In this document: piece by piece, positions 10,124-64,000 of the stretch
How positions within the stretch are numbered: position 1 is the first letter of the stretch
Layout: every line of letters begins with the position of its first letter
NCBI GenBank assembly: GCA_022495995.1
Contig: JAFEMH010000163.1
Coordinates: 1-64,000 of the forward strand
Source of the DNA: Adenophora triphylla var. japonica
Taxonomy: Eukaryota; Streptophyta; Magnoliopsida; Asterales; Campanulaceae
Direction of reading: 5' to 3'
Length of the DNA: 64,000 nucleotides
Program-made: the position numbers and the translations under genes
Notes under the pieces: model-generated
The model's database searches: none
What the model was told of the DNA's origin: nothing
Seen by the model: the letters and a program-made list of their open reading frames with translations, nothing else

Positions 10124-12430
10124 TGTCAGAACGACCCTAACCCTAGGCACAATTTTAGTATAATATTATATGCTTTTAATATTAATGTTAACTTACGTGT
10201 CTATTTTATGTCTTTACATTCTTATGTCAAGATGAAATGGTCTGGAGAATAATTTAGAGCCCTTAGAATTTCTAGAGAAATAAAATAAAGCAATGGGAAA
10301 ATATAATAATAGGAAATGAATAAAATGTGGAAGGAGTATTAAAGTATGTGGAATAAATACTTGAGTAGGAGAGTTTAATTTTAAATGCTTTGGAAAATTA
10401 GGGGAACAAATTGTTATTTTGGGTGAAAGCCTTGAGTATTGGTGGCGGGGGCCACGCCTCCCTAATTCCCTCAACTTTGGCCTCATAAGTCAACCTTCCC
10501 CATACCTCCCATACTCCTTCCCTTACTCTTTCACCTCCTCACTCTTCTTCTTCATTTTCCTTACTTTCTTTTAGAAAACATCCATGGAAAACCTTCCATG
10601 AAAACTTCACCTCCCAAATCATTTCCAAGGTAAATCCTCCTCCATTTTCAAATCCAAGAGTACTTTGGTGATTCGTGCATCTAGGAGAGTTGATCAAGCC
10701 AAGAAAATCATCTTTCCATCTTCAGTATTTGCTAGAGGTGAGTTATTATGACCCTTTCCCTTCTTTGAATGTTCATGAATATTAATGTTGTTATGGTTGT
10801 TCTATTGGTTTTGATTCTTGGGGAAACTTTCTTGAATTGAGGAATTTGTTTGTTTTATAGGAAATGTTGTGGTTCATGGAAGTGGTAATGATCTAGGGTT
10901 AAGACATGAGTCCACGGAGTTAAATGAGTTAGAATGAAGTTAGCAAAGTTGGAAATTTTCCCTTAGGTTCACAAATTAGAAGTCTTGGTTGGAACATTTG
11001 AATTTTTGGGGAAATAGTTGTTGTTGCCGCCGCTATCGCCCGTTTCGGGGCCGAGGCACGAGTCGTGCCCCTTGGCACGAGTCGTGCCCTTGGCCAAATC
11101 GTGACCACGAGTCGTACCTAGGAGGTCCAATCGTTCTGAGTGACTTAAGGAATTGAGCACGAGTCGTGCCCTGGGGCACGAGTCGTGCCCTGAACTGGTT
11201 TCTCACATCAATTTTAAAACTGTTCAAACCCTATTAAACTAGAACCAAAATGAAATCTCTGTAACCTAGATTAAAGTAGAATACTTTGGCTACACAATGA
11301 CATCTTAAGTGATCAAAATGGAATTGGGGAAGTACTTTAAATGTTGCTCGGAAAACGCTAGTTAACCTAGTTTGGCAACTTGACAAATATGATCCCAACT
11401 TGATAGATTTGTCGTGGACCTTTAAAGAGGCTATGTATTGTTGTATAATGACTATGTAGGATGGATTGATGATACTTCCTTGCCTTACTTGAGTTCATAT
11501 ACATTGATTATATTATGCATAGTGTGTTAAATAAATGTTGAACTATGATATTAGTTGAACATGAGTATATTTTACCATGTTGCTATATTGTTATCCCTTT
11601 TGTGGATTATATTTCAAGTAACTATTATGTGCTTGATATTGTGTTAATCACTGATGTTGGGGTATAACATAATACGATCAATTATGGAAGTGTGACCTAA
11701 TGTGATCGGATTATGTTATATTCGTGACCGATCCCCTCCTCGCGCCACAGTGTCGGGGTTATAGCATCCGTATTGAGCCAAAAGCCTTACAGAGTTGCTA
11801 CTATCTTATTTGGTTCCCGAGAAATGGGTCTTATAAGATGTGAGTATTGCTTAAATTTCACCTAAGATTGGAATTTTATATCCAATGTTGTACGACTATT
11901 GTTCGAGACGGGAAAAGGTAAACCAAGGTAATGGAATGTGTTTACGCTTTTCCAATGTGTTATATGAAACTTGTTATGTGTTGCATCTTATTTGGCATAT
12001 TGCTGCATTCATAATAGCTTGCTGAGATTTATTCTCACCCCTCTCCCTTTAATGTTTTTAGATCCCGAGACAGGCGGACCGGCCAAGTAAGGCGGAGAGG
12101 AGTTTGGAAGTGATTTTGGGGATTGTCGAGGTATGTATAGGTTGGCGTAGAAAGTGTATTTTGGTATAATTCCTTTATGGAGTTTGTATTTATAAACTTT
12201 AATTTCTAAGTTATAACCACAATCTTTTGTAACTAAAACAGATGAATACTTTCAAAGTTGGTCAACTCTTCCTCCAATGTGGAGAGGAGTGGAGTTATTT
12301 TGAAATGGTTATGTTAATTGTGATTATGTTTGAAAGTTAAATCAAAGTTTTAAAAGTTTGGGAAATTTTGAGTTAGTTTGGGAACGCTCCAGCTCGGGAC
12401 ACGTGTAGGTTCTGGGTCGGGGTCCTCACA
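10124..12430 (+). repeat. 5' LTR of the chromovirus
   Basis: Begins TGTCAGAACGACCC and ends GGTCCTCACA, directly before the PBS. It aligns with the 3' LTR at 16992-18991. It is longer because it keeps a 443 bp segment (11541-11983) absent from the 3' LTR. Inside, at 11055-11190, it carries five copies of a GGCACGAGTCGTGCC-type palindrome. I could not assign a convincing TATA box. Confidence 0.93.
11055..11190. repeat. Palindromic word cluster in the 5' LTR
   Basis: The word GGCACGAGTCGTGCC (arms GGCACGA and TCGTGCC around one central base) occurs at 11055-11069, 11074-11088, in a degenerate form near 11105-11119, at 11157-11169 and, in its longest form with 8-bp arms, at 11174-11190. The copies are arranged as two close pairs with a degenerate one between them. 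Confidence 0.92.
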
Positions 12431-12432
12431 GT

Positions 12433-12444
12433 TGGTATCAGAGC
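12433..12444 (+). other. Primer-binding site, initiator tRNA-Met
   Basis: TGGTATCAGAGC lies two bases after the 5' LTR. It is the standard plant retrotransposon PBS complementary to the 3' end of initiator methionine tRNA, from which minus-strand cDNA synthesis starts. Confidence 0.95.
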
Positions 12445-12528
12445 TCGGTTAGAGTTCTCGGGTAGAGTCTAGCTGAGTGAGAGTGTGTGATAACTGACGT
12501 CGAGTGTTTAGTGCAGGAGTTTGTTCTA

Positions 12529-13198: not shown

Positions 13199-13206
13199 AG
13201 AGCATC

Positions 13207-16206
13207 GTGGTAAATCTGAAGGCGGAAATAGAAATAGATTCCAAGGTCAAGGTTCTGGGCAGAATAGAGGGCAGCCAAGGACTTTCACTTCGGGAGCAAA
13301 TAGAGGAGGAAATGTGGCGGCGCCGAGAAATCGTTCGACTCAGTCGGCCTGGGACATTATGTGGATATTGTAAGAAGCCAAGACATTCAGAGGATAAGTG
13401 TTGGAGCAAGCAAGGCAAGTGTTTAGAGTGTGGGGCAACAGGCCATTTTCGGAAGAATTGTCCTAAGTGGCAAAGGAAGCAAGCTTCGGGTAGCGGTCAA
13501 GGGGGACAAGGCAGTGGTGTGAAGAGAGATATCGACGGGAAACCCAAGGATAGAGTGCAAGGTCGAGTGTTCGCCTTGGGTAGAGGAGAGGTCGATCCCA
13601 ATGCTGTCATTAGAGGTATAGTCCCTGTCTCAGGAGTTAAGGCCCGCATTCTTATAGATCCCGGGTCTTCCCATTCATTTGTGGCATCTCATTTTGCATT
13701 TTCATTGCATAAATTGCCTGAATCTATGCCTTATGTGTTGGAGGTCTCTACTCCTATGGGAGAGTGCCTCGCATCTTCTTTTATATATCATGGTTGTAAT
13801 GTGACTATATGTGGGCATGTATTGCTGGTGGATTTGGTCGAGTTACCAATCCATGACTTTGATGTGATCCTTGGGATGGATTGGTTGAGTCAGTGTCATG
13901 CTTTGGTAGACTGTCGTAGAAAGCGAGTCTCATTTGCTATGCCTGATGTGCCTACTTTTATATTTGATGCAGACAAATCTATGTTCGGTTTACATGTTAT
14001 TTCTGCTTTAAAGGCTAGAAAAATGCTATCTAAGGGGTGTGCAGGGTACTTGGCTTATGTGGTAGATTCCAATAAGAAGTCCCCCGAGTTAGCTCATGTT
14101 CCCGTTGTCAATGAGTTTAGTGATGTGTTTTCAAGTGAGTACTCTATGCCTCCGGATCGTGAGGTAGAGTTTTGTATTGACCTAGTGCCTGGTACCGCAC
14201 CTATTTCTAAAGCACCCTATAGAATGGCTCCGGCCGAGTTAAAAGAGTTGAAGGTCCAATTGCAAGAATTGCTAGACCGGGGTTTTATTCGCCCAAGTAT
14301 GTCTCCGTGGGGAGCACCGGTTTTATTTGTTAGGAAGAAGGATGGTACCTTACGATTATGCATTGATTATCGTTTGTTGAACCAAGCAACTATCAAGAAT
14401 AAATATCCTCTACCGCATATAGATGATTTGTTTGACCAACTTCAAGGTTCCGTTATCTACTCTAAACTTGATTTGAGAAGCGGATACCATCAGTTGAAGA
14501 TTAGACCGGATGATATTGCTAAGACAGCTTTCCGAACGAGATATGGTCATTATGAGTTTGTTGTGATGCCTTTCCGGTTGACTAATGCTCCAGCCGTATT
14601 CATGGATATGATGAACCGTATTTTCAAGCCGTATCTTGATAGCTTTGTGGTGGTATTCATAGATGACATTCTTGTCTATTCTAAGTCCCGGGAGGAGCAT
14701 GAAAATCATTTGAGTATTGTCTTGTTAGTTCTTCGTGAGAAGCAGTTGTACGCCAAGTTCAGCAAGTGTGAGTTTTGGCTTGAGAAAATTTCTTTCTTGG
14801 GGCATATAGTGTCGAGTTTGGGAATTTCCGTGGATCCTTCAAAAATTGAAGCCGTGGTTAATTGGAAGCAACCTTCGACTGTGACTGAGGTTCGTAGTTT
14901 TCTTGGTTTGGCGGGGTATTATCGAAGGTTCATTGAAGGGTTTTCTCGGATTGCTACTCCGTTGACAAGGTTGACTCGGAAAGATGTATCATTTGTATGG
15001 GATTCCAAGTGTGAAGCAAGTTTCAATGAGTTGAAGAAGAGGTTGACAACGGCTCCTATTCTTACCCTCCCGGATGGTTGTGAGAATTTTGTTATCTATA
15101 GTGATGCCTCGAAGGCGGGTTTGGGATGTGTACTAATGAAAAATGGGAAAGTGATTGCGTATGCCTCTAGGAAGTTATCACCGGCGGAACAGAATTACCC
15201 TACTCATGACATGGAATTGGCGGCGATTGTGTTTGCGTTGCATAAGTGGAAACATTATCTTTATGGGGCGAGATTCGAGATTTTTACCGACCATAAGAGT
15301 TTGAAGTATTTATTTACCCAAAAGGAGTTGAATAACCGACAAAGGAGATGGCTAGAGTTCTTGAAGGATTTTGATTGTGTAATTTCATATCATCCGGGAA
15401 AGGCCAATGTTGTGGCGGATGCGATTAGCCGAAAGGCTTATGTGACATCTTTGAGTGCCCAAGAGTTGAGGAGTGAAGTAATACTTGCGAATGTGCGAGC
15501 CATTCCTACCTTGTATGGACATTTGAAGGAAGCTCAACAGAATGATCCGGAGTTAAAGAAAATTTTGGGACAAGTGCAAGATGGGAAAGCCGGGGAATTT
15601 ACGTTGAATAGAGATGGGATTTTAACCTTCCAAGGGAGAATTTGCGTTCCTTCATCACCGGAAATCAATAGCCGTGTTCTAGAGGATGGTCATAAGTCCA
15701 AGTTTGCGATTCATCCGGGTAGTACTAAAATGTACCAAGACTTGAAGCGTGGGTATTGGTGGAATGGGATGAAAAGGGAAATTGCGGATTATGTGTCTAA
15801 GTGCTTAACTTGTCAACAAATCAAGGCCGAACACCAGAGACCGGCAGGACTACTTCAACCATTGGATATTCCGGAGTGGAAATGGGAAGGGATCTCGATG
15901 GATTTTGTTTCAGGTTTGCCTCTTACCGCGAAGAAGATGGATGTTATTTGGGTTATTGTGGATAGATTGACAAAGTCGGCTAATTTTCTTCCGGTGTCAA
16001 CCAAGTTCTCGATGGAGAAGTTAGCCCAGTTGTATATGAAGGAGATTGTTAGACTTCACGGGGTTTCGGTTAGCATTGTTTCCGACAGAGATCCGAGATT
16101 CACTTCTAGATTTTGGAGAGCATTGCATGAAGCCTTGGGTTCTAAATTGTATTTTAGTACGGCGTTTCATCCTCAAACTGACGGTCAGTCCGAGAGAACT
16201 ATTTAG
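13207..16206 (+). pseudogene. Chromovirus zinc knuckles, protease, RT, RNase H and integrase core
   Basis: A 999-codon open stretch holding most of pol. Two CCHC zinc knuckles lie at residues 52-65 and 72-85. The aspartic protease site reads [10 protein letters not shown] (DPG in place of the usual DSG/DTG; I recall this as common in this clade). RT has [30 protein letters not shown] and the catalytic [10 protein letters not shown] normally conserved glycine is arginine in MPFRLTNAP. RNase H has [13 protein letters not shown] and [11 protein letters not shown]. Integrase has the HHCC segment ending CLTCQQIK, then [16 protein letters not shown] and [10 protein letters not shown] with 35 residues between the second D and E. 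The first 50 residues are probably out of the original frame. The frame ends at a TAG (16204) where glutamine is expected. Confidence 0.93.
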
Positions 16207-16956: not shown

Positions 16957-16978
16957 AATTCGGGGCGAATTTTTCTTT

Positions 16979-16991: not shown

Positions 16992-18991
16992 TGTAACGAC
17001 CCTAACCCTAGGCACTATTTTAGTATCATATTATATGCTTTTAATATTATTGTTAACTTTATGTGCTCATTTATGTCTTTAATTTCTTATATTAAGATGA
17101 GATGGTTGGGAAATAATTTAAAACCTTAGGATTGCAAGGGAAATAAAATAAAGCATCTTGGGGGAAATATAATAATAGAAAATGAATAAAATATGAAATG
17201 AGGTTAAAGTATGTGGGATAAAGAATTGGAGTAGGGGGTTAGTTTTACTACTCTAGAACTTGGGAGGGTTTAATGGAAAAAGGTTGAAAGATTTTAATTA
17301 AGGAAGCATGGGGGGGCATACTTCCTCTCCTTATTTCCTTCACCTCTTTCCCCTTAGTCAACATCCTCCCATACTCCTCCATCCTCCTCATTTTGCTTCA
17401 TCATTTTCTTCTTCCTTCCTCCCAATTTCCATGGAAGCTCCTTCTTAAAGCTTCACTTTCCAAGTTCCTAGGGCATTCAATTCTTCTCCATTTGGCAATC
17501 CAATTGTACTTCCGTGTTCGGGGTGAGGAGGGGAGCACATCAAGCTAAGAAAATCCTCATTCCATTCCATATTTGCTAGGTGAGTTATTATGACTTTCCC
17601 TTCTTTAAATGTTCATGAACTATGGATGTTATTATTGTTATTAAAATGATTGTTTGATGCTTTGGAAACCTTCTTAGAGTTAAGGAATTGGTTAATGTTA
17701 GGGAATGATGTTGTTGTTCATAAGAGTTGAGTAAGAGTGTAAGAAAATGAGTTGATTTGGATTAAGAGGGTTAATCTTGAAAAATGGTAGTAAAATGGGT
17801 GGAAAATCAAGGGGTAAATGATCTAGGTTTAGGATATGCTACTTTGGGGTTAAATGGTTTAGAATGGAATTAGCAAAGTTAGAAATCCCTTTTAGGTTCA
17901 CAAATTAGAAGAAGCTTGGTACAAGTTTTGGTTTTTAGGTGTTATTAAGGAAAACTTCCAATGATACCTGATTCTGGCCGTGGCACGAGTTGTGCCCCTT
18001 GGCACGAGTCGTGCCCATGGCCAACTTGTGGATACGACTCGTGGAATTGGAGTTAAATCGTTCTGATCAACTGAAGGCTGAAATGGCACGAGTCGTGCCC
18101 TGTGGAAATAACGAGTCGTGCTTACTAGGGGACGCATGAATCTGGGAAAGGTCAATTGGGCACGAGTCGTGCCCTGTGGCACGAGTCGTGCCCTGGCCTG
18201 GTGACTTTGAACCAACTTTAGAGCTGTTTAAACCTATTCAAACTAGAACCAAAATGAAATCTCTTTAACCTAGATTAAAGTAGAATACTTTGGCTACACA
18301 ATGACATCTTAAGTGATCAAAATGGAATTGGGGAAGTACTTTAAATATTGCTTGGAAAACGCTTGGCAGCCTAGTTTGGCAACTTGACAAATGTGACTCC
18401 AACTTGGTAGATTTAACTTGGACCTTTATAGAGGCCATGTATTGTTGTATGATGACTATGTAGGGTGGGTTGATGATACCTTATTGCCTTACTTGAGTTC
18501 ATATTCATTGATTATACTATGCATAGTGTGTTAAATAAATGTTGCATCTTATTTGGCATATTGCTGCATTCATAATAGCTTGCTGAGATTTATTCTCACC
18601 CCTCTCCCTTTAATGTTTTTAGATCCCGAGATAGGCGGACCGGCCAAGTAAGGCGGAGAGGAGTTTGGAAGTGATTTTGGGGATTGTCGGGGTATGTATA
18701 GGTTGGCGTAGAAAGTGTATTTTGGTATAATTCCTTTATGGAGGTTGTATTTATAAACTTTAATTTCTACGTTATAACCACAATCTATTGTGACTAAAAC
18801 AGATGAATACTTTCAAAGTTGGTCAACTCTTCCTCCAATGTGGAGAGGAGTGGAGTTATTTTGAAATGGTTATGTTAATTGTGATTATGTTTGAAAGTTA
18901 AATCAAAGTTTTAAAAGTTTGGGAAATTTTGAGTTAGTTTGGGGACGCTCCAGCTCGGGACACGTGTAGGTTCCGGGTCGGGGTCTTCACA
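16992..18991 (+). repeat. 3' LTR of the chromovirus
   Basis: Starts TGTAACGACCC and ends GGTCTTCACA. It matches the 5' LTR over its length but lacks the segment equivalent to 11541-11983. The join, near 18540, lies at a TGTTG word present on both sides of the lost segment, pointing to a deletion between short repeats. It also has extra sequence around 17750-17850 and a longer palindrome cluster (17982-18192). Confidence 0.93.
17982..18192. repeat. Palindromic word cluster in the 3' LTR
   Basis: GGCACGAGTCGTGCC-type words are at 17982-17996 (one base changed), 18001-18015, 18085-18099, near 18110-18122 (left arm damaged), 18158-18174 (full 8-bp arms) and 18178-18192. A damaged copy of the opposite centre (ACGACTCGTGG) is near 18032. 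This LTR therefore has about two more copies than the 5' LTR. Confidence 0.9.
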
Positions 18992-19480
18992 TCATATATC
19001 ATAAATAACATTATTATAGAATCTCTAAACCCATTTATAACTTTTTTCAAATGAGCTTATTATACTTAGATCAAAGTTATCTAAAAAATGGATCTTTCTT
19101 TATTGGAGGGAGAGAAGAAGGGAGTAGGTACTAAAATAAATAAAAAATCTCATTAATGATGGAAAAGCTATTGTTGCATTGTTGTATGAGATGAATATTG
19201 AGACAATATATGAGAATTGTTTTGATTTTATTTTTATTGATAAATAACAGATTGTGAATAAATTGAGAAATTCTCAATCGTTGATGAATAACAGATTGTG
19301 AAAAGTTGAAAAATTCTCAATTATTTTAAGAGGGATAACACATATTCTAAAGTGACTTCAACTTTCTCAATATAACTGAGAACTAAATTTATAGTTATTT
19401 AAAACACAACTAGGATTTATGGGTTCAAACGATTTAAATTGAGATTTCTGGAGTGTATACAAGTTTGTGAACAATTTATA
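18992..19480. other. AT-rich spacer after the chromovirus
   Basis: No gene is visible. A segment of about 65 bp, around ATAACAGATTGTGAA, occurs twice in tandem near 19240 and 19288. The rest is unremarkable AT-rich sequence. Confidence 0.5.
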
Positions 19481-20272: not shown

Positions 20273-20287
20273 CTCGGCTATGCCGAG
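20273..20287. repeat. Inverted repeat CTCGGC-TAT-GCCGAG
   Basis: Six-base perfect arms around a three-base loop. Related half-words (CTCGGCATA, TCGGCATA) occur at about 19871, 20032 and 20054. It lies about 210 bases upstream of the plus-strand TATA box and upstream of the minus-strand one as well. Confidence 0.75.
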
Positions 20288-21229: not shown

Positions 21230-21790
21230 ATGATGGGAAAAGGAAGTAACACTGCTTGGCCTTCAGCTGGTCCTTCCACCTCGGGCAGGATTGTAAATGC
21301 CTTTGGTGAGGGAGCCCAAGCAGGTAGCCGAGGGAGAGGACGAGGGAGGTCCAGCCGAGATAGAGTATATATCCCTAGGCCCAAACACATTAAAGTCGGG
21401 GAACCAATGATAGAGGAATTACATTCCAAGTATGGGGTGTCGAGAGAGGAGTACCACCTTAGCTACTTTCCCGGCGCTCTTGTAAAGGATGAGGAGGCGA
21501 TGAAGTACTTTATGTATAGCCTCAACCACGTCCACTGTTTCTACAAGCAGCTCCAATTCGGTTTGCGTCTCCCCTTAGATCCATTCATATGTGAATTTTT
21601 TGAGGACATGCAGGTCGTCCCGGCTATGCTAGGTGCCAATACCGTGAGGTTCCTCACCGGCTTCATCGTATTAGGTCGTAGCTTAGGTTTTAAGCCTTGT
21701 CAGTCTGCGTTCAACCATTTCTTCACAGTTAGTTATAAGGAGGATACAAGGATTGTGGTGATAAGGAGTAACCCACTGAGATTATATTAA
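21230..21790 (+). pseudogene. Gypsy-associated Transposase_28-type protein, 3' truncated
   Basis: A 186-codon frame starting MMGKGSNTAWPSAG, with a Gly/Arg-rich stretch (residues 30-48), followed by a segment resembling the N-terminal domain of plant putative gypsy-type transposases (Pfam Transposase_28): FGLRLPLDPFICEFFEDMQV, then VRFLTGFIVLGRSLGF. Despite the family name these proteins accompany Ty3/gypsy elements and their function is unknown. The match stops at about residue 175 and the frame closes at the point where Ogre leader sequence (21802) begins, so the gene was probably cut when the neighbouring element arrived or recombined. Confidence 0.6.
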
Positions 21791-34191: not shown

Positions 34192-34205
34192 AGGCCATCC
34201 GGCCT
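34192..34205. promoter_or_regulatory. U3 inverted repeat AGGCC-ATCC-GGCCT, LTR-A
   Basis: Five-base arms around ATCC, about 18 bases upstream of the TATA box, within the phrase AATTGAAGGTT - repeat - GTTTT. A damaged second copy (TTCCGGCCAGTTTTAC) lies near 34105. A sequence-specific factor site is possible but inferred. Confidence 0.6.
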
Positions 34206-45565: not shown

Positions 45566-45568
45566 CTG

Positions 45569-48923: not shown

Positions 48924-51557
48924 CTACTTAGAGTTCGGCTCATCTTTCGAGCACTCAGCATACTGCCCCGCATCAGCAGGATCCGTGGTGGACTGGTAAT
49001 CAATAAACTCATCAAAGCCAGAGTACGAGAAGTGACGGCCCCGTGCCTGCGCTCCTGAAGACTCCCCATGCTCGAATCCCGAGTATGAAGAATGGCGAGC
49101 CCCAAATCCAACAGTCTCACCGGAGAACTGGCTAAAGCCCTGCCCAGCATCTATACCACCAACCGCGAAAGCAAATGAGTCTCTCGCAATAGACGGCCAG
49201 GAAGGCATCGGCTCATGAACAGCCGTACTCCTCTGAGAACTGCATCACAGGAAGTTAACAAGCCCCTGGAGAAACCAGTCATCCCATCCAGACGTCTGAC
49301 AGCCTGATCGTAGGTGCAGCCAGAAACCTGAAAACTAGGAAAGCCATCAAAAGACAGAAAGTACAGCACAGATGCAACATTTGCAGAATGCTACTACAAG
49401 TACAGAAAAGCAACAAGATACTCACCGAAGCACTGGGTTCAACTCTGTTTGAGGCCTCGCCTGCTCCGGGATAGGAATCGTCAACCGCCTGTGAGAACCA
49501 CCAACTCCCTCGAATGCCAAGCGAGTGCGGGGGAGCGGATAATCTCTGGGATGCACAGGGTCCTCACCCTCTCTGGCCATCACCTGTGGGCTCCTCAGCC
49601 TCACCCTCCGAAAGATGTCATAGTCAGCATCCTCAATGATGTTATCAACATGAGGCACTCCCTACCTGTACCGCTGCAACTCCTCCCCATCTATGGACAT
49701 AGGAAACAACATGTAAAGAGGCGGATCCCTCGGAACCAAGGGACCAGATCCCAGAGCATACTGCAAGACACCCTCTCGCCAAGATACAAGACGTCATAGT
49801 GAGGCCCCACTAGCAGCTTCCGCTGACTTGTCATCTCCCTAGTAGCATGCACAACAGCCTGATCAAACCGGCTCCACCAAGTCAAGTTGATCCGCGGCGA
49901 AAAGTCTCGGTCCAGATCCAAAGACACCTCCTTATAAGTCACACGGGTACTCTCCCTTGACTTCACCGGCTTCCTAGCCGCCTTCTGCCAAGTCAGCATG
50001 GCAAGAAACAAAGGAGCATACGCCTTCCTGATAGTCCACCGATGCAGGTGAAACACCTCAAAACACCACACCTGTAAAACGCCAGGAAAGTTATGTCAGC
50101 TACAAAACAGATACAAACAAGTACAAGCGAGACAAGGAAGATAAAAAAAGAAGGAGACTCACATCTAGCACAAACTGAATGAAATAGAATGAGTTGTCCC
50201 CCCCCCTCCGAGAATACCTGTCTAAGGCGAAGAAAAGCTCGGCCAGACCAGCTTCTCCCCAGGCAAACCCTTTCACGGCCTTCAGATCAATCAAGGAGCC
50301 AAGCAAAGCAAACTGACACATCATGTCAGCATTGGGAAAAAGGGTTGCTGATAGAGCAAACCACAAAAATCCCCTAGCCAAACAATCAGCTGTCATCCTC
50401 TCGGAGCCTGCCAGATACTCATCTATCCCTCTCCTAAAATGTTCCTCCATCGGCCCGTACCGAATACCAAGGCCACTAGCATCCGTGATGTCAAAACCAA
50501 GCAGTACCGAATACTCTATTGGATTGCCTCGGAATGACAACCCGGTAATCGCAGCAAAGTCCGTGGGAGTCACTGATGCCTCCCCCCACCTAAAGTGAAA
50601 CGTGTGGGTCGTGTCCCACCAATACTCGCTCAAAGCGACATGGAGCACCTTAACCCTCTCTGTCGAAGCCACCACAGCCACCGCGCTGATGAAGCCTCCC
50701 TAAAATATTTCCGTCCCAGTCAGAGTATTAAATGGTTCAAGTTTCAAAATCCCGTTCATTAACGGTTCATTTCCCTAAAATATTTCCGTCCCAGTCGGAG
50801 TATTAATGGTTCAAGTTTCAAAATCCCGTTTCATTAACGGTTTTTTTCCCTAAAATATTTCCGTTCCAGTCGAAGTATTAACGGTTCGAAATCCCAAAAC
50901 ATGCAAGTCATTTTGAAAAACCCGTCGAACCCAGAACTTTCAAAACATTTCGAAAAACCCGTCAAACTCGAAACTTTCAAAACATTTCGAAAAATCCGTC
51001 AAACCCAGAACTTTCAAAACCATGTTGAAAAAGAAAAACCCGTCAAACCCGGAACTTTCAAGTCATTTCGAAAAACTCATCAAACCCGGAACTTTCAAAA
51101 TCATGTTGAAAAACCCGTCAAACCCGGAACTTTCAAACACTTTCAAAATTACTCCGTCCCAAATTAAACTCACTTTAATTTTGGAAAACACCCCTAGACA
51201 AGGAATTTTCTACCAAAATTTCTACGCTGTCTACCCATAACGTCAATTGCACTAAGCTAAAGTCAATTTTTGACAAAAGGGCATCGCAAGGTCAAAAGCC
51301 CCAAAACGGGCACCAAGAACCCTAACTCAATTCAAATCAAAATTCCAAAATTTCAAGAATGCAAATTCTAAATTCAAAGGAATTTAGAGGATGCTTACCT
51401 TCCTCGCTATCCCTTCCTTGGATTTTTGGCTATCCCGAGCTTTGTAAAACTCGATCGGATCTATAGGAAGAGTGGTCGTTCGCACCGTCCTCCTAAGCCT
51501 CTTCCTCTCGTTGTCGGTCCTTCTATGTCGACCCATCTGCCCCAATCTTGCTTCCAT
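48924..51557 (-). pseudogene. Antisense plant mobile-domain gene, copy 2, exon 2 start deleted
   Basis: Exon 1 is intact: 51557-51399, 53 codons from MEARLGQMGRHRR to KEGIARK, donor GTAAGC, phase 0. Exon 2 lacks its start and splice acceptor, because a deletion joins minisatellite to coding sequence at about 50700. It keeps SEYWWDTTHTFHFRWGEASV, TPTDFAAITGLSFRGN and the donor GTGAGT after 50163. Exon 3 is 50071-49426 (acceptor TTTTACAG) with a frameshift near 49750 and a 2-nt loss near 49449. Exon 4 is 49327-48924 (acceptor GTTTTCAG) with frame changes. Exon 2 here preserves the PMD core better than copy 1, while exon 1 shows the ancestral reading frame. Confidence 0.75.
50697..51150. repeat. 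Minisatellites in the antisense intron, copy 2
   Basis: Two to three 74-bp units of the CCCTAAAATATTTCCGTCCC type (50697-50890), then about six units of the 36-37 bp AAAACCCGTCAAACCC type (50915-51150). Unit order and sequence match copy 1, with different unit numbers. Confidence 0.85.
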
Positions 51558-51760
51558 AGCAAGAATCTTTCAAGATTTCAACCTAAGATCGAAGAAAAAT
51601 TACGAATTTTTCTCTCTTTTCTCTCTTTCTCTCGGCAGAAACTCACAATTTTCTCTCTTTCTCTATAATGACCGGCGACTTCTTTTAATTTGGCCAAATT
51701 GAGTAAGAGGCCGTCCGGCCTCTTTTACGTGATGGGCCATTTTGGCCCAAATGCCAATTC
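51558..51760 (-). promoter_or_regulatory. Upstream region of the antisense PMD gene, copy 2
   Basis: Minus-strand GA-rich leader (AGAGAGAAA words at 51610-51665) and the inverted repeat GAGGCC-GTCC-GGCCTC at 51705-51720, about 150 bases before the start codon. The same type of repeat is in the LTR U3. Promoter function is inferred from position. Confidence 0.45.
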
Positions 51761-53055: not shown

Positions 53056-53697
53056 GTCTCAACCAGGACGAACTCCTCCTAATCATTCCCCCACAGGTCG
53101 AGGCCCCTACGAAATGCCCTCGCACCCATGAACTACGATCGGCTTGATTCCCGCTCGGGATACGTAGGAATCCTTTCGCTAAAGGGTCCAGCTATTTGGC
53201 TGCTCAGGTCTCTCCAATAAGTCATCCCCCGATTTGGATCCTTATCTTTTTCAATGACCCCACTTCCTTCGAAAGTGATGTCGCTGAGGGGCTATTGTAA
53301 GTACCCAAATCCGGATCGTTACAATCCGTTAAAAGTTAACAGGAATTCGTTAACTGGCCCTTTCCAAGTTAATCGGAATCCGTTAACTCCCCCTTTTCGA
53401 GTCAACGAGGCTTCCCAGGACTGCCCCGTGCATCCAAATTTCAAAGTGTACTCAACACACATTATCACACATAAAAGTACCACTTTCCTCGAAATACACA
53501 ATTTTTGGGACTTTCCGGGGCTGTTTCGGACAATTTCTCGGACAGTTATTTAGAAAACAGTCAAAATCGAGATTAACGGGACAAAAAACCTATCTTGGTG
53601 ACTCACAGGGACACGTGGCACACACGCACAGCTTCCCAAATCAATATCAATCAGATTCGAGGGTGAAAAGACCAAAATACCTCTGAAATTGAAGGTT

Positions 53698-53805
53698 AGG
53701 CCATCCGGCCTGTTCTTCATGAAAAACCAGAATCCTCAACCAAGCCCAGCAATTTCCAAAATACCTCAAAAGTCCCTCAAATTGAAGTTTAGACCGGATG
53801 GCCTG
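53698..53805. promoter_or_regulatory. Paired U3 inverted-repeat words, LTR-B
   Basis: AGGCC-ATCC-GGCCT at 53698-53711 and AGACC-GGAT-GGCCT at 53791-53804, the second with inverted loop. Both stand in the frame AAATTGAAG ... TGTTCTTCA, about 115 and 20 bases upstream of the TATA box. Confidence 0.6.
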
Positions 53806-53823
53806 TTCTTCAAATTTAACCCC

Positions 53824-53832
53824 TATAAATAC
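53824..53832 (+). promoter_or_regulatory. TATA box of LTR-B
   Basis: CCCCTATAAATACAGCC, same context as in LTR-A. Expected start site about 30 bases downstream, just after the pyrimidine-rich CCCCTCCCCTTC. Confidence 0.75.
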
Positions 53833-54239
53833 AGCCCCTCCCCTTCAGTAAAAAGGAGGAAAAATATTAATCCTTGTCAAAAACCTCACGGTTCCAGCCA
53901 ACCAAACACCTCCCTAAGCCCCAGAAATGCCTCGATTTACGTGAAAACCACGTTCTCCAACCAAACACGAGCCAAACTTTCGAAACACATTCCAAACACC
54001 AAATTGTATCCCGTATATGTCCTCCCGAGCCAAAGAGTCAATACCTAGCAATTGGTAACACTCTCTCTCTCTATACTCCGTTTCGTCTCTATTAACGCAT
54101 CATACGCTACTTTCGATCCGGTCGAAATTTTCAATATGCAAACGTAACGCCGTCTACGAGACTTGATACGTTTTAGTCCCTAATCATCTTCTCTCCCGTA
54201 AGAGAAGTAATTTCGGGTTAAAATGGCATTCAAGTCCCG

Positions 54240-54900
54240 TTTCTTACTTTTCTATCATTTGCCGTTCGGATCGTTCGATCCGTTGATTCGCATTTTTACC
54301 GTCCGAACCGTTTGGTTCATGATTATCATTTACAAGTCCGGATCGTTTGATCCATCGATATTGATATTTACTTTACGCACCTTTACAAATCCGAGTCGTT
54401 TGGCTCATCGATCGCATTTTTACCGTCCGGATCGTTCGATCCGTTGATATTGCATTTCAATATTGTCATTTACAAGTCCAAGCCGTTTGGTTTGTTGATA
54501 GTATTTACTTATAAATGTCCGAGTCACAAAATGACTCGTTGATCGCATCTCATTTACTACCATTTTTCATAAAATTGGTAACATCGTAATGCCCGGTTCA
54601 AAACCGAAAGTTCGTCATACGAACTCCTTTTCAAAACCCCTCAAAATCGATGTTTGTCATTCAAACGCTCATTTTTGACTCAAAATAGACGTTTGTCATT
54701 CAAACGCTCATTTCCGACTCAAAATCGACATTTGTCATTCAAACGCTCATTTCCAACTCAAAATCAACGTTTGTCATGCAAACGCTCTTTTCAAACTCAA
54801 AATCGGCGTTTGTCATTCAAATGCTCTTTTTACCAAAATCAACGTTTGTCATTCAAACCAAGATTAAAGCTTGTCATTCAAGCTCATTTTCAAAAGCAAC
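54240..54900. repeat. Hairpin ladder of LTR-B
   Basis: Perfect or near-perfect mini-hairpins: CGGATC-GTTC-GATCCG (54267-54282 and 54428-54443), GAACC-GTTT-GGTTC (54305-54318), GGATC-GTTT-GATCC (54340-54353), CAAGCC-GTTT-GGTTTG (near 54479, one G.T pair), CGAGTCA-CAAAA-TGACTCG (54520-54538), AGTTCG-TCATA-CGAACT (near 54609), several GTTTG-TCATT-CAAAC (54650-54860) and AGCTTG-TCATT-CAAGCT (54868-54884). Confidence 0.92.
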
Positions 54901-55168
54901 ACGAACACACACACACGCACACTTTTCGAGAAAGGTAGAAAGACTAGTCATATGAGGCGTTTTGGGTGATCTGAATATACTCTTCCCGAAATGTAACGTG
55001 ACCTCCGAACCTAACAATCTCTGTTCAAAAAGCCATTTCCTAAGTTTTGGCTACCAATCAAAACGACATCCTTTCCAAAAAGCCTTTTCCTAAGTTTTGG
55101 CTACCAATCAAAACGACCTCCATCAAACCAATCTTTTTCAAAGTTTAGGCTCATAATACAAAACGGCG

Positions 55169-55178
55169 TGGCGACTCC
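55169..55178 (+). other. Primer-binding site after LTR-B
   Basis: TGGCGACTCC, eight bases after the LTR end and intact, unlike the one after LTR-A. Its presence shows that LTR-B is followed by an internal region, not by host DNA. Confidence 0.8.
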
Positions 55179-55689
55179 TCTCTTTTCAGCGAGGTCCCAA
55201 GTGCGAAAGCCGCTCGCGGCGTTCCCCGCGCGCGATCTGGGTAATTTCAGTGTGTAAGGAGAGGAATTTATTTGTAAATCCAACCTCCTCTCCATGGCCC
55301 CTCGGCCCCTTTGATGACGTCCTAGCCTCAATAATTCCGCCATGATAACAATCTAGCAATTTGGGAAGATTTTCTCGAGAAAATGAGGCTCGAAAATGGG
55401 ATTTTCTTCTCTTTCTCTCTTCTCCCTCGGATGGAAATGGAAGAATGGGGTGGAATGGCGTGATGTAAATCTGAATCTGTTTAAAAAACATCAGATTTGC
55501 ATAAGAGTCCGTACGGACCTCTTTGCAAATGCAAGATGTGTCCGCACGGATCACTTTGCAGCCCCAAGCAATTCCCTCTTTTGCCCTTACAAACTTTGCC
55601 CTTGGCTGTCCAAAAGCCATTTCCAGCAGAATTCGTACAAATTGGTCCCTAAACCAACGAATCCTTTTCACTGTCCGTCATCGTAAGCC

Positions 55690-56950: not shown

Positions 56951-57247
56951 TCTTCTCTCTCTCGACAAGCGATCCAAATCGGGACTCTTATCTTTATCGA
57001 TGATCGCACTTCCTTCATAAGTGACGTCGTCGAGGGGCTTCTGTAAGTACCCCAATTCGAACCGCTCTCCGTCCGAGCATACGGAAAACACCGGGGATTC
57101 ACGCATTCATGATCCCAAAGACCCTTAACGTCCAAAAAGGTCCAAGCTGACCAGCCAAACCAAAGAAGGACCTTTCAGGGATAAAAGGGAATTCAAGGAA
57201 TTTGCAAGAAATAACAAAAAATAAAAAAACAAGTCATCTTGCATACA

Positions 57248-57401
57248 TGTCCGTACGGACACATGTACAAAGCATGATGTGTCCGTACGGACACTTATGT
57301 CAATACGCCAGAATCATTGCAAAATCTCCACAAAGTCCACAATATTCCCTGAAATCCAGGAAAACCAAATAATTGTAATTGCATACATGTCCGTACGGAC
57401 A
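57248..57401. repeat. Palindromic word cluster in LTR-C
   Basis: TGTCCGTACGGACA is a perfect 14-base palindrome at 57248-57261, 57280-57293 (extended to 16 bases, 57279-57294) and 57388-57401. All lie within 175 bases upstream of the TATA box. A GTCCGTACGGAC copy and a damaged partner recur at 55507-55518 and 55538-55554 with nearly the same spacing. Confidence 0.93.
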
Positions 57402-57422
57402 CTTTTGCAATTTTTTTAGTCC

Positions 57423-57430
57423 TATAAATA
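57423..57430 (+). promoter_or_regulatory. TATA box of LTR-C
   Basis: CCTATAAATAAAGG, 381 bases after the LTR start, in a context like the LTR-A and LTR-B promoters. Confidence 0.65.
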
Positions 57431-57589
57431 AAGGTCTCCCCCTCTCATATCACTGACACCTTCTCTTCTCCAAACCTCCCCACAGCCTTCAGGCACAATT
57501 CTAAGCCATTTTGACCGCTTTTGGTCCTTCCCGAGGCCTTCTGAGCCATCCCGAGGTGCTCTCGAGTGTAGCAATGCGTGAATTTTTAA

Positions 57590-57606
57590 CATCTTTTGAG
57601 TCGCCA
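57590..57606 (-). other. Primer-binding site of the minus-strand element
   Basis: On the minus strand TGGCGACTC followed by AAAAGATG lies just after LTR-D. This is the Tat-type PBS, and it leads into a few tens of bases of leader before the junction with LTR-C. Confidence 0.6.
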
Positions 57607-58263
57607 CTTATTATTTATTTAGGAAAAACAATAAGAAAAACCTTTTTTTGATTTAAAAGAGATTTGAGGGTTCGGGATTTAAGTTATGGAATTGGTAGGT
57701 CAAGGAGCATCCATTCCACCCGATCCGAAGATCGGTCTTGCCAATTGAGTATTATCAATCTTTTTAATTTAACAATAAAATAAAGGAACAAGAAAATCCT
57801 AATCAATTTCTTGATTAGGAATGTCGGATTATATGCTTCGAGATCGCCTTCATGGATTGAAGGGACTCTAGGCTAATCCTTTTGATGGGATTACACCACT
57901 CTAAAAGACAATAGAGAGAGAGATTAAGAAGAAGAGAGTAAAAGTATAGGAGTTTACCTAGTGTTTAGGGATATTTGATTTAGAACGTGGTTCTAAGATG
58001 TCTTCTCGGTCGAGAAGTGATTTGGGTAGAGTTTCGACTCAATATGAGAGTCAAATCTTGATGCGGACAGAGCTTCGCCTCGGTCCTTGATTCGGGCTTT
58101 GATGTTTGTTGATCAACAAGGTTGACAAACAAACTTTAGGTGATTTTAGGGTGATTTTAGGGTGATTTTGTAGGAATCTTTCAGGGAGAGAAACTAACAA
58201 AATGTGTGTGTTGTGTGTTTTCGATCGTGGATCGGGGACCTCTGAAATACTGAAAGCCATCAA

Positions 58264-58272
58264 GTATTTATA
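58264..58272 (-). promoter_or_regulatory. TATA box of LTR-D
   Basis: Minus-strand CCCCTATAAATACTTG, about 380 bases after the LTR start, very like the TATA context of LTR-A and LTR-B. Confidence 0.65.
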
Positions 58273-58433
58273 GGGGTTAAAGAGGTGGATGGATGACTTG
58301 GTCACCAAGATTAGGAGACTCAAGGAAGGTTCCATAACTCATATGTGATTGGAGAACCAGATTAGATGATGTTTATCAAGAAAAGAGGTTGAAATGGAGA
58401 AGGAGAGTGAATCTGCACATCCTGTCGAGGGGT

Positions 58434-58469
58434 TGTCTCGCGCGAGACACGTATGTCTCGTGCGAGACA
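58434..58469. repeat. Palindrome pair in LTR-D
   Basis: TGTCTCGCGCGAGACA (58434-58449) is a perfect 16-base palindrome. Four bases later TGTCTCG-TG-CGAGACA (58454-58469) repeats it with two unpaired central bases. The pair lies 160-200 bases upstream of the TATA box in the minus orientation. Confidence 0.93.
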
Positions 58470-58944
58470 ACTAGTCGGTTGACTATTTTGTCCTCTTCAG
58501 TTTATTCCGTTAGTCAGTTAAGTCCAAAACTAACTAAGTTAGTTAGAAACTTAACAAAACGTGATGAAACTGAGATGCTTTCATCAAAACATAAAAGAGA
58601 GACAAAGAGTAGTGTAATCATGAATTATTGGTTCAGAATGGGGTGTCTACAAGCCCCTTGGCGACAAGACTTATGGAAGAAGTCATGTCATCGATAGAAA
58701 AGACATCATTCTGAACATTGGGATGGTCGTGCCGCACGGCTGCCTATGTATCTCTAAGAGAGAATCAGACCAAACGTAGTTCGACTCCAAAACACCAAAA
58801 AGGCTATTTTAGGTATTTTGAAAAGAATTTTTGAAAAGCAAGGAGATTTTTTGAAAAGGTAAAATCATACTAAGGAATCAAAGACTTGACCCAATTCTGA
58901 AGATACCTGTTTGTTGATGAAGTTGTTGAAGTGCGCCACCCGAG

Positions 58945-61148: not shown

Positions 61149-62502
61149 TCATGGATTACGAGAGAGAGGATTGTTGATGACGTTGGGACGTTCTAGATCT
61201 CCATTGTCAAAGAGGTCTTGGATGATGTCCTTCAAGTGGTGGCAAGTGTTGGTGTCGTGGCCGGTGAAGTTGTGGTACTTGCAGAATAAGTGATGAGCAT
61301 GATTAGGACCCATATCCTTAGGAGGACCACCTTCCCTTGGTTTGATCTTTTCATTCTTGACAAGTACATTGAAGAGTTCTTCTTGAGTGATCCCTTCAAT
61401 TTTGTCATAGTGTCTCTTTTTCTTTTCAGGAGGAGGAACAACAGAATACTTGCTGGTGTTGGGGCGGTTGGATGCAATGGCATTGACTGAAGCATCCTTA
61501 CATGTGGTCGGTTTGTTGAAGCGGAAAGTTCTTTCCTTCTTTTTGCTTTTCAAGAAGTCGTCAATCCTAATTTCGGACTCATGGAGTTTATTGAAACTAG
61601 GAAAGTAATTATCGATGAGCTTCTCTTGAAATTCATCACGAAGACATTGAAGGAAGATGTGGATTTGCTCTTTGAGGGTAGGTCTTTCGACGATTTCAGT
61701 AAGTTTGAGTCTCCATCTTCTAGCAAATTCATCAAAGGACTCATTGGCATGTTGCTTGGTTTGTTCAAGATCCCTCCTAGTAGGGCGGTAAGTGGAGTTG
61801 TTTTCAAACTGCCTTTGGAAGACTAAACATGCAGACGACCAATCAAGCCTCGTAGTCATAGGAAGAGACATGTACCAATCCCTTACAGCACCCTCCAAAG
61901 TTTGAGGAAAGCATTGGGCCAAGATTGTGTTATCAATGCCCATTGGAAGCATGGCCCAAGTGTAGGTCTCAACATGAGCTCGAGGACAGGTAGTACCATT
62001 GAACTTGGCAATATTGGGTGTCTTGTACTTGCGAGGCAACTTGGTGATTGATTGTTGAAGAGCATCGGGATCAAATGGAAAGAATGACCCTTTTGAAGTG
62101 TCAAGGGTTCTCAAGGTAGTTCTTAGTAACATGGTCACCAAGTTTAGTAGTTTCACCACTGCCTTCTTTCTTGGTTTTAGCACCCTTGGAGGTATGCTCC
62201 TCATCATCGGAGGAGGATGAAGAGGAGAAAGAATCAGATTCTTCCTTTTTCTTGCTTGACTTCTTGGGTATCTTATTCTTTTTGGTGTAGGATTCCTCTT
62301 CATCGGAGGAGGATTCCACTTTCTGCTTTTGTTTTCTTCCTTTCTTGACTTTCATGTCGTTGAGCTCTTGCATGAGGGAGTCCATTTGGGCATTTTGCTC
62401 ATCAATTTGCTTACTTTGTTCATCCAACCTAAGCATGGCTTCGATGAGTTGGGCCTTGGCTTCGTTGAATTCGGCCTCGGTGGTAGGAGGAGAAGCAGAC
62501 AT
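61149..62502 (-). pseudogene. Tat-like gag, minus strand, one frameshift
   Basis: Start MSASPPTTEAEFNEAK at 62502. Residues about 10-52 form a probable coiled coil (LRLDEQSKQIDEQNAQMDSL), followed by a Lys/Ser/Glu-rich low-complexity segment with SSSDEEE and SSSSSDDEE. Near 62105 the frame shifts from NYLENP-stop to the frame reading LDTSKGSFFPFDPDALQQSI. The capsid domain follows: NIAKFNGTTCPRAHVETYTW, GAVRDWYMSLP, ESFDEFARRWRLKLTEIV. A Tat-type knuckle FCKYHNFTGHDTNTCHHLKD ends the protein before LERPNVINNPLSRNP. Apart from the single frameshift it is well preserved, so the element may have been mobilised recently with helper proteins. Confidence 0.85.
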
Positions 62503-62608
62503 CGTGTCGAGCTTTGGCGAAGAACCTAGACGTGTAGCAACCGTGTTAAACCATGATCGAGTCCCAACAAGTCGGCTGAGTTTATCTCTCTAAAATTCTC
62601 TCTATAAA

Positions 62609-64000
62609 ATGGCTCATTCTCAATCGGATTCAACTCACAATACCTCTGAGGAATCAAACAGTGATTCCAACATATCCAAGTTCGTGATAATGGTAAGTTA
62701 TTTCCATCTTACAACCATGATTTTTGCAATTTAAAATGGCCGTTTGTCTCTGTCCATAAAATGAGAAACCCAGTTGCTTCGAAATGCTATTTTTTTATGC
62801 TATCTGCTTAAAATTCTGCTCATCCATGTCCGATTCTCCATTATAAACTCATGCATGACATTTATTTCATGTTTAGTTGGTGTTTTGATTGTTCAAAAAG
62901 AAGAAATTTGAAAAACCTTGGTTACGAGTTTTCTGAGTTTAAAATTCAATTTCTGTGATTTATTTGAGTTAAATAAAGTATTTATTGTTGTTTTTAATGA
63001 AATTCCCACTCTTAAAAGCAAGAAAATATGATTTTTAACATGTTTTGTGAAAATCTGGAAATTTCGTTCTTCATGTTCTTCGTATGTTCATATGAATTTC
63101 TGGAAAATACTCTATATTTTGGTTTTTAATTCGGATTAATCTTGTTTAACCTTTTAGATCCAAAATTTTGCTTACAAATATTCTTCAAGTGTTTTTGCTC
63201 TAAGTCACAGTTGACCACATACATTACGGTCGACCGCATAAGCCTTGTTCTTTCTCACTTAAATACGGTTGACCGCACAAATAATTATACATATCACGGT
63301 CAACCGCATCTACATATATGTATCTATGTTCTCACATTTTTTTCTTCTATGCAGAATACTAGTCATTTTATACATGTTTGGGTCATTGACCGCAAAGACT
63401 TAGCTCTTGATGCTCTTGGTAGAGTAATGCTCAAAGTCTTTAAAAAGTCTGGAGTTCTTCCTTTCTTTGACATGAAGCAATCAATCCATTTTCCTGCCTT
63501 GGTGGATCAATTCTTCCACTATGCCAGAGAACATGTTGTAAAAGATGACAAAGGTAGAAGGATCAAGATCATAAGCACTCAAATTCATGGAATTCCATTG
63601 GACATAGACTATGAAGACATTGCTTTTGTCCTCAATATTCCTATCAGCAGAACTGATCCCATAGAACTAGATCAACAGGAATTGGATGATCTATCTGTAT
63701 CATTAATTGGCAGTAATGCAGTAACAACAACACCAATGAAATTTTTTGATGAGCTTATGTACCATATAAGCCATCTTGTTGGACACTCATTTTTCTACAA
63801 AACTGGTAATCAGGCCAACTTCAACAATGATCAGTGGAAGATTTCATCAGCTATATTTCTTGGCAAAAGACTACATTGGCCTAAGATTATTTTTCAACGT
63901 CTGATAGCTAGCATTCTGGAATATCAAAAGAATGAAGCTACTGGTCATAACAAATACAGAACCCATACCAGACTCATTTCCCTCATACTGGCTCAAACAG
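62609..64000 (+). CDS. Two-exon open frame running off the window, unrecognised
   Basis: Exon 1 62609-62692 (28 codons, MAHSQSDSTHNTSEESNSDS...), donor GTAAGT; intron 62693-63354 ending in TTTTTTCTTCTATGCAG; exon 2 from 63355 open without any stop to the window end (215 codons). The join is phase 0. Exon 2 reads HVWVIDRKDLALDALGRVML, IIGTQ-like IISTQIHGIPLDIDYEDIAF and FLGKRLHWPKIIFQRLIASI. I cannot name the family; the position among retroelements and the 'GIPLDIDYEDIAFVL' style suggest a retroelement-associated ORF of the PMD/gypsy-accessory kind, but this is inference. It is the only long undamaged frame in the window. The intron carries four palindromic CGGTYRACCG words. Confidence 0.55.
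63208..63306. repeat. Palindromic word cluster in the intron/leader
   Basis: CGGTCGACCG (perfect, 63227-63236), CGGTTGACCG (63266-63275) and its reverse complement CGGTCAACCG (63297-63306), preceded by a damaged CAGTTGACCAC (63208). Each is followed by CA. They lie in the intron of the open frame starting at 62609 or, alternatively, in an LTR/leader. Confidence 0.85.

Follow-up and report, generated by a model that had tools for sequence, protein, structure and literature searches.

Family-specific palindromic words at the LTR and antisense-gene promoters of Tat-like retrotransposons in Adenophora triphylla

Within a 64,000-base stretch of Adenophora triphylla var. japonica DNA (contig JAFEMH010000163.1, positions 1 to 64,000; hereafter the window), numerous long terminal repeat (LTR) retrotransposons lie nested in one another. 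Several of these LTRs carry short palindromic words whose letters differ from family to family, and the question is what such words might do. A first-pass annotation of the window had named seven cases in supposedly unrelated LTR and leader sequences and had proposed binding sites for dimeric host factors, or a device that diversifies between families. The words are real and occur far above chance. In Tat-like elements of the Ty3/gypsy class, the promoter of an antisense gene located between pol and the 3′ LTR bears the same word as the LTR, and the two vary in step between families; this feature, absent from the first-pass annotation, seems to be new. The genome of origin comprises 2.48 Gb, and all genome-wide results below come from this one genome.

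Three elements of the window, A, B and C, provided the starting point. Their designation as Tat-like relies on anatomy (an antisense gene and tandem repeats) rather than on a reverse transcriptase tree, the reverse transcriptase lying outside the open reading frames (ORFs) tested. LTR-B and LTR-C are preceded by the same polypurine tract (PPT) and have the same TGTAAGTACCC start, the LTR-A start being mutated; all three LTRs carry CTATAAATA, and their alignment places differing words at equal positions. Thus the earlier description of the LTRs as unrelated is partly wrong, since LTR-A, LTR-B and LTR-C share PPT, LTR start and promoter layout. Forty additional copies were picked in the genome by a pattern combining PPT and LTR start (9,902 occurrences), blind to the words. 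This sample was enriched for rarer starts, with 15 of the CTAC, CTAT or CTTA forms listed and 25 of the common form. Adding elements A, B and C gives the set of 43 elements used below; seven further loci bring it to 50.

Most words of the Tat-like elements fit the pattern xxYCG-NN-CGRxx. A recognisable TATA box was found in 47 of the 50 elements, 35 of which have a word, and in 30 of these 35 the TATA box (TATAAATA) follows the end of the nearest word at 18-23 bp. This spacing is seen with all words of the AGCCG (13/13) and GTCCG-TA (11/11) types and with part of the GTCCG-TC (2/3), GGCCG-TC (2/3) and TGTCG (2/4) types; the single GGTCG word (0/1) does not have it. More word sites are found at about 107-114, 127-130, 158-162 and 258-267 bp from the TATA box. 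Across the 43 elements, the last 290 bp ahead of the TATA box have a word density of 4.97 per kb; the values are 1.07 past the box, 0.20 on the 5′ side of the PPT and 0.43 in the region of the antisense gene. In 15 of 37 U3 segments with a TATA box a palindrome recurred within 250 bp, which happened in none of 30 rounds of shuffling. Such repeated palindromes were also found upstream of the PPT (9/40) and further upstream (6/40), and never just after the TATA box (0/37); those upstream of the PPT are probably due to tandem arrays. Within a family the copies of a word have almost identical letters: centres vary, arms do not, as expected for sites bound by a dimer. Separately, three TGTCG-type elements (L088, L094, L097) have extra words, TGTCACGCGACA, in groups of two or three spaced 23 bp apart, about 0.6-0.7 kb past the TATA box.

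In 22 of the 43 elements a second word is present next to the antisense gene, some 1.1-2.0 kb ahead of the 3′ LTR. On the antisense strand, a TTTAAA, TTAAAA or TTTTAA box lies 20-24 bp past the word in 17 of 22 words examined in 21 elements, a spacing close to that in the LTR. Besides the antisense ORF of element B described below, antisense ORFs include one of another family with a match to the plant mobile domain below the Pfam cut-off (L113, E = 1.9e-6), one of yet another family with a weaker match (L114, E = 0.011) and one with no match (L115). A U3 word was scored in 31 of the 43 elements and both words in 20. In 17 of these 20 the half-site is the same in the LTR and in the antisense-gene region (7 AGCCG, 6 GTCCG, 3 TGTCG and 1 GGCCG), a degree of agreement never reached in 100,000 permutations (mean 5.6, maximum 14). 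In a separate observation, coordinates of TATGTCGTGCGACATA sites suggest a further copy inside some elements, about 2.9 kb past the word at the antisense promoter.

Comparison of closely related families indicates how the words differ. Families with AGGCC..GGCCT and AGTCC..GGACT words have alignable U3 segments (133 of 165 positions identical between L079 and L077), and at each of the two LTR sites their words differ in paired positions of the arms. The same arm difference separates the antisense promoters of these families (L080, L083 and winB versus L073, L074 and L079). Element C likewise differs from elements A and B at paired arm positions. Differences between related families, with agreement inside most elements, are as expected for self-specific regulation of the VANC kind discussed below; here the differences are symmetric.

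The near-fixed TATA distance at two promoters, the near-fixed letters and the symmetric differences argue for DNA sites recognised by a dimer, and the agreement between the LTR and antisense words of an element suggests that one family-specific regulator would serve both promoters in a circuit. On this basis we consider it probable that the words are dyad sites bound by a sequence-specific dimer, and that this protein controls two promoters of the same Tat-like element, that of the LTR and that of the antisense gene. The positions of the words, their symmetry, the two-site matching and the near-fixed distance to both TATA boxes, as well as the word conservation in the 10-19 kb element described below, are read directly from the DNA. 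Under the proposed scheme, a single family-specific dimer would control both the sense promoter in the LTR and that of the antisense gene, which lies between pol and the 3′ LTR. The CG pairs of xxYCG-NN-CGRxx would be kept, and the outer arm bases would set family specificity. Between families the two halves of the dyad differ together, as do the LTR and antisense copies, so that each family looks tuned to a regulator of its own. This regulator, which we infer to differ between families, might be encoded by the element or by the host.

Several observations weigh against this interpretation. Of the 43 elements, 12 have no U3 word of the xxYCG-NN-CGRxx form and 21 no word in the antisense region, and 5 of the 22 antisense words lack a suitable box at 20-24 bp. 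The three discordant elements are L080 (GGTCG versus GGCCG), L091 and L106, where the internal dyad is unrelated. L091 combines an AGCCG-type word in the LTR (AGCCGCACGGCT) with a TGTCG-type word in the antisense region (TATTATGTCGTGCGACATAATA), and is possibly a chimera between families. The 17 concordant elements fall into only four half-sites (about six words), their members being relatives; the independent units are thus the half-sites and the permutation figure overstates independence. Concordance was lower (10/15, reached by 1 of 100,000 permutations) when scored with a fixed list of words, which used flank letters and split classes sharing a half-site, and which was replaced by the library-free test reported above. 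In the GTCCG-TC family the centre is TC in the LTR and GC in the antisense copy. No DNA-binding domain has been demonstrated in the antisense gene. Finally, in some families the flanks CTCTTTGCA and AATTTGA..TTTTAC are common to the LTR and antisense sites, so that cassette copying or an old duplication could explain part of the matching.

These shared flanks suggest that a cassette was duplicated or copied between the two places. Under the dimer-site interpretation, such a short cassette would help both promoters change together. They also speak for a neutral homogenisation, whereby template switching or gene conversion would carry short cassettes between the LTR and the interior of the element, palindromes being prone to such copying. 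Homogenisation leaves unexplained the near-constant TATA distance at both promoters, the symmetric arm differences and, in the 10-19 kb element, a conservation of 97% in the words versus 69% in the flanks. We consider it improbable.

A closer competitor, in effect a sub-case of the dimer sites, is that the families captured sites for different dimeric transcription factors of the host, each shared by the antisense gene, with nothing co-diversifying. The GTAC core of SPL (SBP-box) sites is similar to CCGTACGG, a string present in three words; likewise, TGTCTC resembles auxin-response half-sites, and ordinary activator sites may have the 18-23 bp spacing from TATA. GTAC is missing from the GGCC, GTCC-TC, TATGTCG and GGCACG words, however, so that several unrelated factors would be needed for one geometry, and the small symmetric arm steps between close relatives suggest re-tuning rather than swapping of factors. 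The capture of host sites thus seems possible, although clearly less so than the explanation preferred above. Auxin-response or SPL sites in particular were rejected because no single host family is known to fit all words.

Palindromes might alternatively act in RNA, folding in transcripts and feeding or evading small RNAs; a 2016 study reportedly proposed such a role for LTR palindromes of maize Sireviruses. The words are self-complementary, and some have long arms, such as a 30-bp dyad with 14-bp arms in L094. Yet their letters are near-constant within a family, unlike the leader hairpins of the same LTRs, in which stems vary and loops are constant; moreover, the words sit at a fixed distance 5′ of TATA at two promoters, and transcription from its own start does not include the 5′ copy. 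A hairpin role is therefore unlikely. Hairpins for RNA dimerisation or packaging, of the retroviral type, were rejected for the U3 words because their letters are fixed, stem-varying hairpins being found further downstream. There, in the leader 3′ of TATA (34640-36100 and 54267-54900), arrays of hairpins combine constant loops (TCATT/ACATT, GTTY) with perfect stems that differ among hairpins (GTTTG, GTTCG, AGCTTG, AGTTCG; CGAACC, GGATC). Stems of at least 4 bp flank 31 of 59 [AT]CATT loops, compared to a mean of 0.5% in simple shuffles, although much of this is tandem and the counts are not independent. These arrays look like a structured RNA leader.

In most copies each half-site includes a CpG. 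This would fit a methylation switch, with the words being clustered CpG sites whose methylation sets promoter silencing, and palindromy following from CpG occurring on both strands. Decay of CG to CA, as in CCATCCGG versus CCGTCCGG, goes in the same direction, as does the report, in the available excerpts, that Sirevirus motifs form CpG islands (PMC2829016). A CpG spans 2 bp, though, and does not need family-specific symmetric arms of 12-16 bp. We give this explanation little credence taken by itself; it is compatible with dimer sites, and the two could act together.

The window elements illustrate the proposed arrangement (Table 1). Element ends, the LTR-C boundary and splice sites in the window were read by eye. 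In LTR-B, the copy at 53791 has one arm mismatch and a reverse-complemented centre; relative to LTR-A, the TATA-proximal centre is flipped from ATCC to GGAT with flanks conserved. The first-pass annotation had attributed repeated words to LTR-A and LTR-B, which was overstated: AGGCCNNNNGGCCT is perfect only once in each (34192 and 53698) and once outside any LTR, at 51708. The latter site belongs to the antisense-gene promoter of element B, where a TTAAAA box lies 20 bp past the 12-bp word core on the antisense strand. Two further matches with one mismatch (19614 and 28437) correspond to neither promoter. Altogether, six matches to AGGCCNNNNGGCCT with up to one mismatch were found in the window against 0.9 expected, a number reached in 1 of 100 shuffles. 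A further antisense ORF of element B (50100-50681) matches the plant mobile domain (PF10536, E = 1.3e-19). Matches to the element C word with up to three mismatches number five in the window against 1.36 expected (five reached in 0/100 shuffles). The antisense ATG of this element is at 55343, in an exon that by eye resembles that of element B, with a TTTAAA-like box at +20 from the word; the frame is apparently cut near 55249 by insertion of element B in the first exon.

Table 1. Positions of words, LTRs and associated genes in the window.
Feature	Position	Strand	Details
5′ LTR of Ty3/gypsy element	10124..12431	+	pairs with about 16992-18992; earlier labelled chromovirus
5′ LTR word array	11055..11189		GGCACGAGTCGTGCC at 11055, 11074, 11175; one mismatch at 11156
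3′ LTR word array	17982..18192		GGCACGAGTCGTGCC at 18001, 18085, 18159, 18178; one mismatch at 17982
CTCGGC-TAT-GCCGAG, single	20273..20287		half-words of 9 bp at 19871 and 20020, of 8 bp at 20044
Transposase_28 (PF04195) ORF	21230..21790	+	Pfam E = 1.8e-8; downstream of plus-strand TATAAAAG
LTR-A proximal word AGGCCATCCGGCCT	34192..34205		ends 18 bp 5′ of TATAAATA (34224)
Element B antisense gene, putative first exon	51398..51557	-	begins MEARLGQMGRHRRTDNERKRLRR; ends in splice-donor-like GTAAGC, by eye
Element B antisense-gene promoter word AAGAGGCCGTCCGGCCTCTT	51705..51724		about 150 bp 5′ of antisense ATG (51557)
LTR-B, 3′ LTR of element B	53297..55248	+	TGTAAGTACCC start after PPT; end approximate, homology to LTR-A stops near 55252
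LTR-B words	53698..53804		AGGCCATCCGGCCT at 53698, AGACCGGATGGCCT at 53791; TATAAATA at 53824
Element C antisense-promoter words	55506..55552		AGTCCGTACGGACC at 55506, TGTCCGCACGGATC at 55539
LTR-C, start of 3′ LTR	57041..57576	+	apparently cut by LTR-D element at about 57.58 kb
LTR-C words TGTCCGTACGGACA	57248..57401		57248, 57280, 57388; TATAAATA at 57423
LTR-D, probably Ty3/gypsy element	57577..58651	-	TGTAGACACC start after PPT-like AAGGGGCT run, by eye; ends approximate
LTR-D words	58434..58469		TGTCTCGCGCGAGACA at 58434 and, with one mismatch, TGTCTCGTGCGAGACA at 58454, 20 bp apart
CGGTYRACCG words	63227..63306		63227, 63266, 63297; upstream of open frame from 63355

Chance was assessed by dinucleotide shuffling of the window in 2-kb blocks. 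Dispersed pairs of identical palindromes (arms of at least 6, within 250 bp, flanks dissimilar) numbered 16 in the window and 0 in 60 shuffles. They lie in four places, namely the 5′ and 3′ LTRs of the 10-19 kb element, LTR-C, and the region 3′ of the LTR-B TATA box, with one pair at 54267/54428. The 16 do not include the LTR-D and 63.2 kb words, whose copies are one letter apart. Tandem arrays at 8-10, 31-36, 54 and 56 kb also hold repeated palindromes, a trivial consequence of tandem repetition. The first of these (8000-9912) consists of diverged repeats, in which a unit length of about 74-94 bp and multiples of it are seen, holding the palindrome AACTTACCGATAAGTT; a 34-bp dyad lies inside it at 8664. 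Of the seven cases originally named, four stand as repeated palindromes: the 10-19 kb element, LTR-C with its three copies, LTR-D with two, and the 63.2 kb words, of which three were found where three to four had been counted. Position in U3 within about 200 bp of a TATA box holds for LTR-A, LTR-B, LTR-C and LTR-D and fails for the clear TATA box of the 10-19 kb element. As for dimer sites that diversify, family-own inverted words, mostly in U3 and changing symmetrically, lend the idea partial support.

Genome-wide, exact matches were counted with the reversed word as control. Four words gave 469 to 28,934 sites against 0 or 1: GGCACGAGTCGTGCC occurs 14,688 + 14,246 times (reversed word 0), TATGTCGTGCGACATA, a word first met in a fetched Tat-like copy, 5,632 + 5,554 times (0), TGTCTCGCGCGAGACA 1,810 times (0) and TGTCCGTACGGACA 469 times (1). 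Spacing was measured among the 100 sites listed per word, all on the first contigs. For TATGTCGTGCGACATA, 53 of the 100 sites listed have an exact neighbour within 300 bp, and intervals among the matches listed are 84 or 85 bp (29/32) or 126 bp (3/32), always in the same orientation. For GGCACGAGTCGTGCC the corresponding figure is 71 of the 100 sites listed, with intervals among the matches listed of 19 bp (8/39) or 91-98 bp (17/39) and opposite orientation in 4/39.

GGCACGAGTCGTGCC is the word of the 10-19 kb element. The pol ORF of this element (13207-16206) has protease, reverse transcriptase, RNase H and integrase domains in Ty3/gypsy order, and the next ORF (16219-16956) matches SH3_Tf2-1. 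Five copies of the word per LTR were confirmed when up to three mismatches were allowed; the six to seven also claimed require more degenerate copies. Word pairs spaced 19 bp apart are found in this family, and a genomic relative (L042) has a symmetric variant, GGGACGACTCGTCCC, adjoining half-changed copies. When the two LTRs are compared, 58 of 60 word columns are identical, versus 562 of 813 flanking columns (Fisher p = 4e-7; the flanks are the non-word columns of 10325-11235, 69% alike). The clear TATA box of this element, TATTTATAAAC, lies about 1 kb (5′ LTR) or 0.55 kb (3′ LTR) downstream of the words, and the last word ends 22-33 bp 5′ of TTTTAAAA or GTTTAAAC. With the clear TATA box so distant, a promoter role of the words is less certain than in Tat-like elements. 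The LTR pair is 63-87% alike per 100-column bin 5′ of about 11246, 86-98% alike thereafter and 94-100% in the last 450 bp; by eye, the flanks of the element show no obvious target-site duplication. The element is probably a mosaic made by recombination between two elements. In viral contigs, no relatives of its pol protein were confirmed, and GGCACGAGTCGTGCC was found in 34 stretches with one match apiece.

The words of LTR-D lie about 160 bp upstream of a minus-strand TATAAATA (58272). The gag ORF of the LTR-D element (61149-62303, minus strand) matches PF03732 and is 29% identical to the gag of element A (E = 6e-43); the element appears to have inserted into LTR-C at about 57577. The words of LTR-D and of the 10-19 kb element seem to follow the same plan, apart from a demonstrated second promoter. 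At 20.3 kb, the annotation had reported a full CTCGGC-TAT-GCCGAG with half-words; one full copy and half-words are indeed present, with no repeated perfect word, so that counting the fragment as a repeat was an overstatement. This word is flanked by TATAAATA on the minus strand (19727) and by TATAAAAG on the plus strand (20497), and the segment 19871-21790 suggests a divergent promoter pair. The Transposase_28 ORF (TRP28) is part of this 20-21 kb fragment, while the antisense ORFs of the Tat-like elements studied here resemble the plant mobile domain. A Transposase_28 domain has been reported in antisense ORFs of Retand elements (PMC11963269, available excerpts).

The plan of family-differing palindromic motifs in LTRs is partly known already. 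According to the available parts of their paper, Bousios et al. (2010) described, in 13 Sireviruses, which are Ty1/copia elements, motifs that are palindromic and highly repeated and whose words are specific to the family (PMC2829016). These motifs lie upstream of the LTR TATA box, with extra copies upstream of the envelope-like gene where present; two of the 13 Sireviruses listed share one motif, and the motif is called Sirevirus specific and absent from 'classic' retrotransposons (PMC2829016). The claim that no description of such a shared feature was known thus falls. By their letters, the 63.2 kb words appear to be of this published kind, placed in the window without an identified LTR. They have the repeated palindromic CGG-CCG core, and a listed Vitis motif, CGGTCGACCG, is the 63.2 kb word itself (PMC2829016). 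In the genome ACGGTYRACCGC occurs 1,425 times versus 173 for the reversed pattern, and the 63.2 kb word recurs in one grouped layout (e.g., C19, C48 and C111). At the one place examined, C111, the 3.5 kb upstream of the words hold copia Pol_BBD, gag_pre-integrs and RVT_2 domains. Membership in Ty1/copia is thus established through this relative rather than through the window copy, whose open frame 3′ of the words, a candidate for the envelope-like gene, has no Pfam match and no homologue at E 1e-3.

Words of the Tat-like elements resemble the Sirevirus motifs, as far as the excerpts go, in being palindromes that differ between families, with several copies 5′ of the LTR TATA box (the 15 of 37 U3 segments above) and more before an extra gene. 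They differ in residing in Ty3/gypsy rather than Ty1/copia elements, in the extra gene being antisense, and in having CG turned inward (YCG-NN-CGR) instead of CGG...CCG. Elements A, B and C fall outside Ty1/copia, element A having a PF03732 gag and element B RNase H before integrase, as in Ty3/gypsy elements. Among the titles and abstract openings listed in a literature search, none described such words in Ty3/gypsy LTRs or a word shared with an antisense gene.

Antisense additional ORFs between pol and the 3′ LTR, the position found here, are known from Tat, Retand and Grande elements, and the excerpts of PMC7264820 and PMC11963269 describe the function of the Tat/Retand genes as undetermined. 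The same excerpts report an own promoter for Grande gene23 and suggest a regulatory, DNA-binding role for the TRP28 domain; they do not describe a promoter word shared with the LTR, and palindromes go unmentioned in PMC7264820 and figure in PMC11963269 only in a cited title. The antisense gene is a natural candidate for the regulator gene, given the word in its promoter and its basic first exon. Tentatively, then, this gene or a paralogue may encode a dimeric regulator recognising its own family's palindrome at both promoters, protein and word co-diversifying and so insulating the families from one another; we would put this at no better than possible. The available part of PMC7156037, which deals with MAIN and MAIL1, two plant-mobile-domain proteins of the host, contained nothing in favour of such proteins binding the words.

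Another close parallel is found in VANDAL elements, which are of the Mutator type. Their VANC proteins act in anti-silencing, and binding has been demonstrated for VANC21 and VANC6 (PMC5735166; see also PMC10398659). As here, short, repeated, non-coding, family-specific words change together between relatives (PMC5735166). There are also differences: the VANC motifs quoted (YAGTATTAY, AGTTGTCC and AGTTGTAC) are not palindromes (PMC5735166), binding is a candidate property in our case, and VANDALs are DNA transposons whereas Tat-like elements are retrotransposons. Should the antisense gene encode the regulator, Tat-like elements would be an independently evolved retrotransposon counterpart of the VANC systems, and their antisense genes would gain a function. 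A dyad shared near the TATA box of both promoters makes that function directly testable. An element-encoded regulator would amount to self-recognition by retrotransposons, as in VANDALs, and would help explain how many families coexist in a large genome. Even if the factor belongs to the host, the words provide a sequence signature by which LTR promoters can be recognised, together with a naturally occurring set of altered dimer sites.

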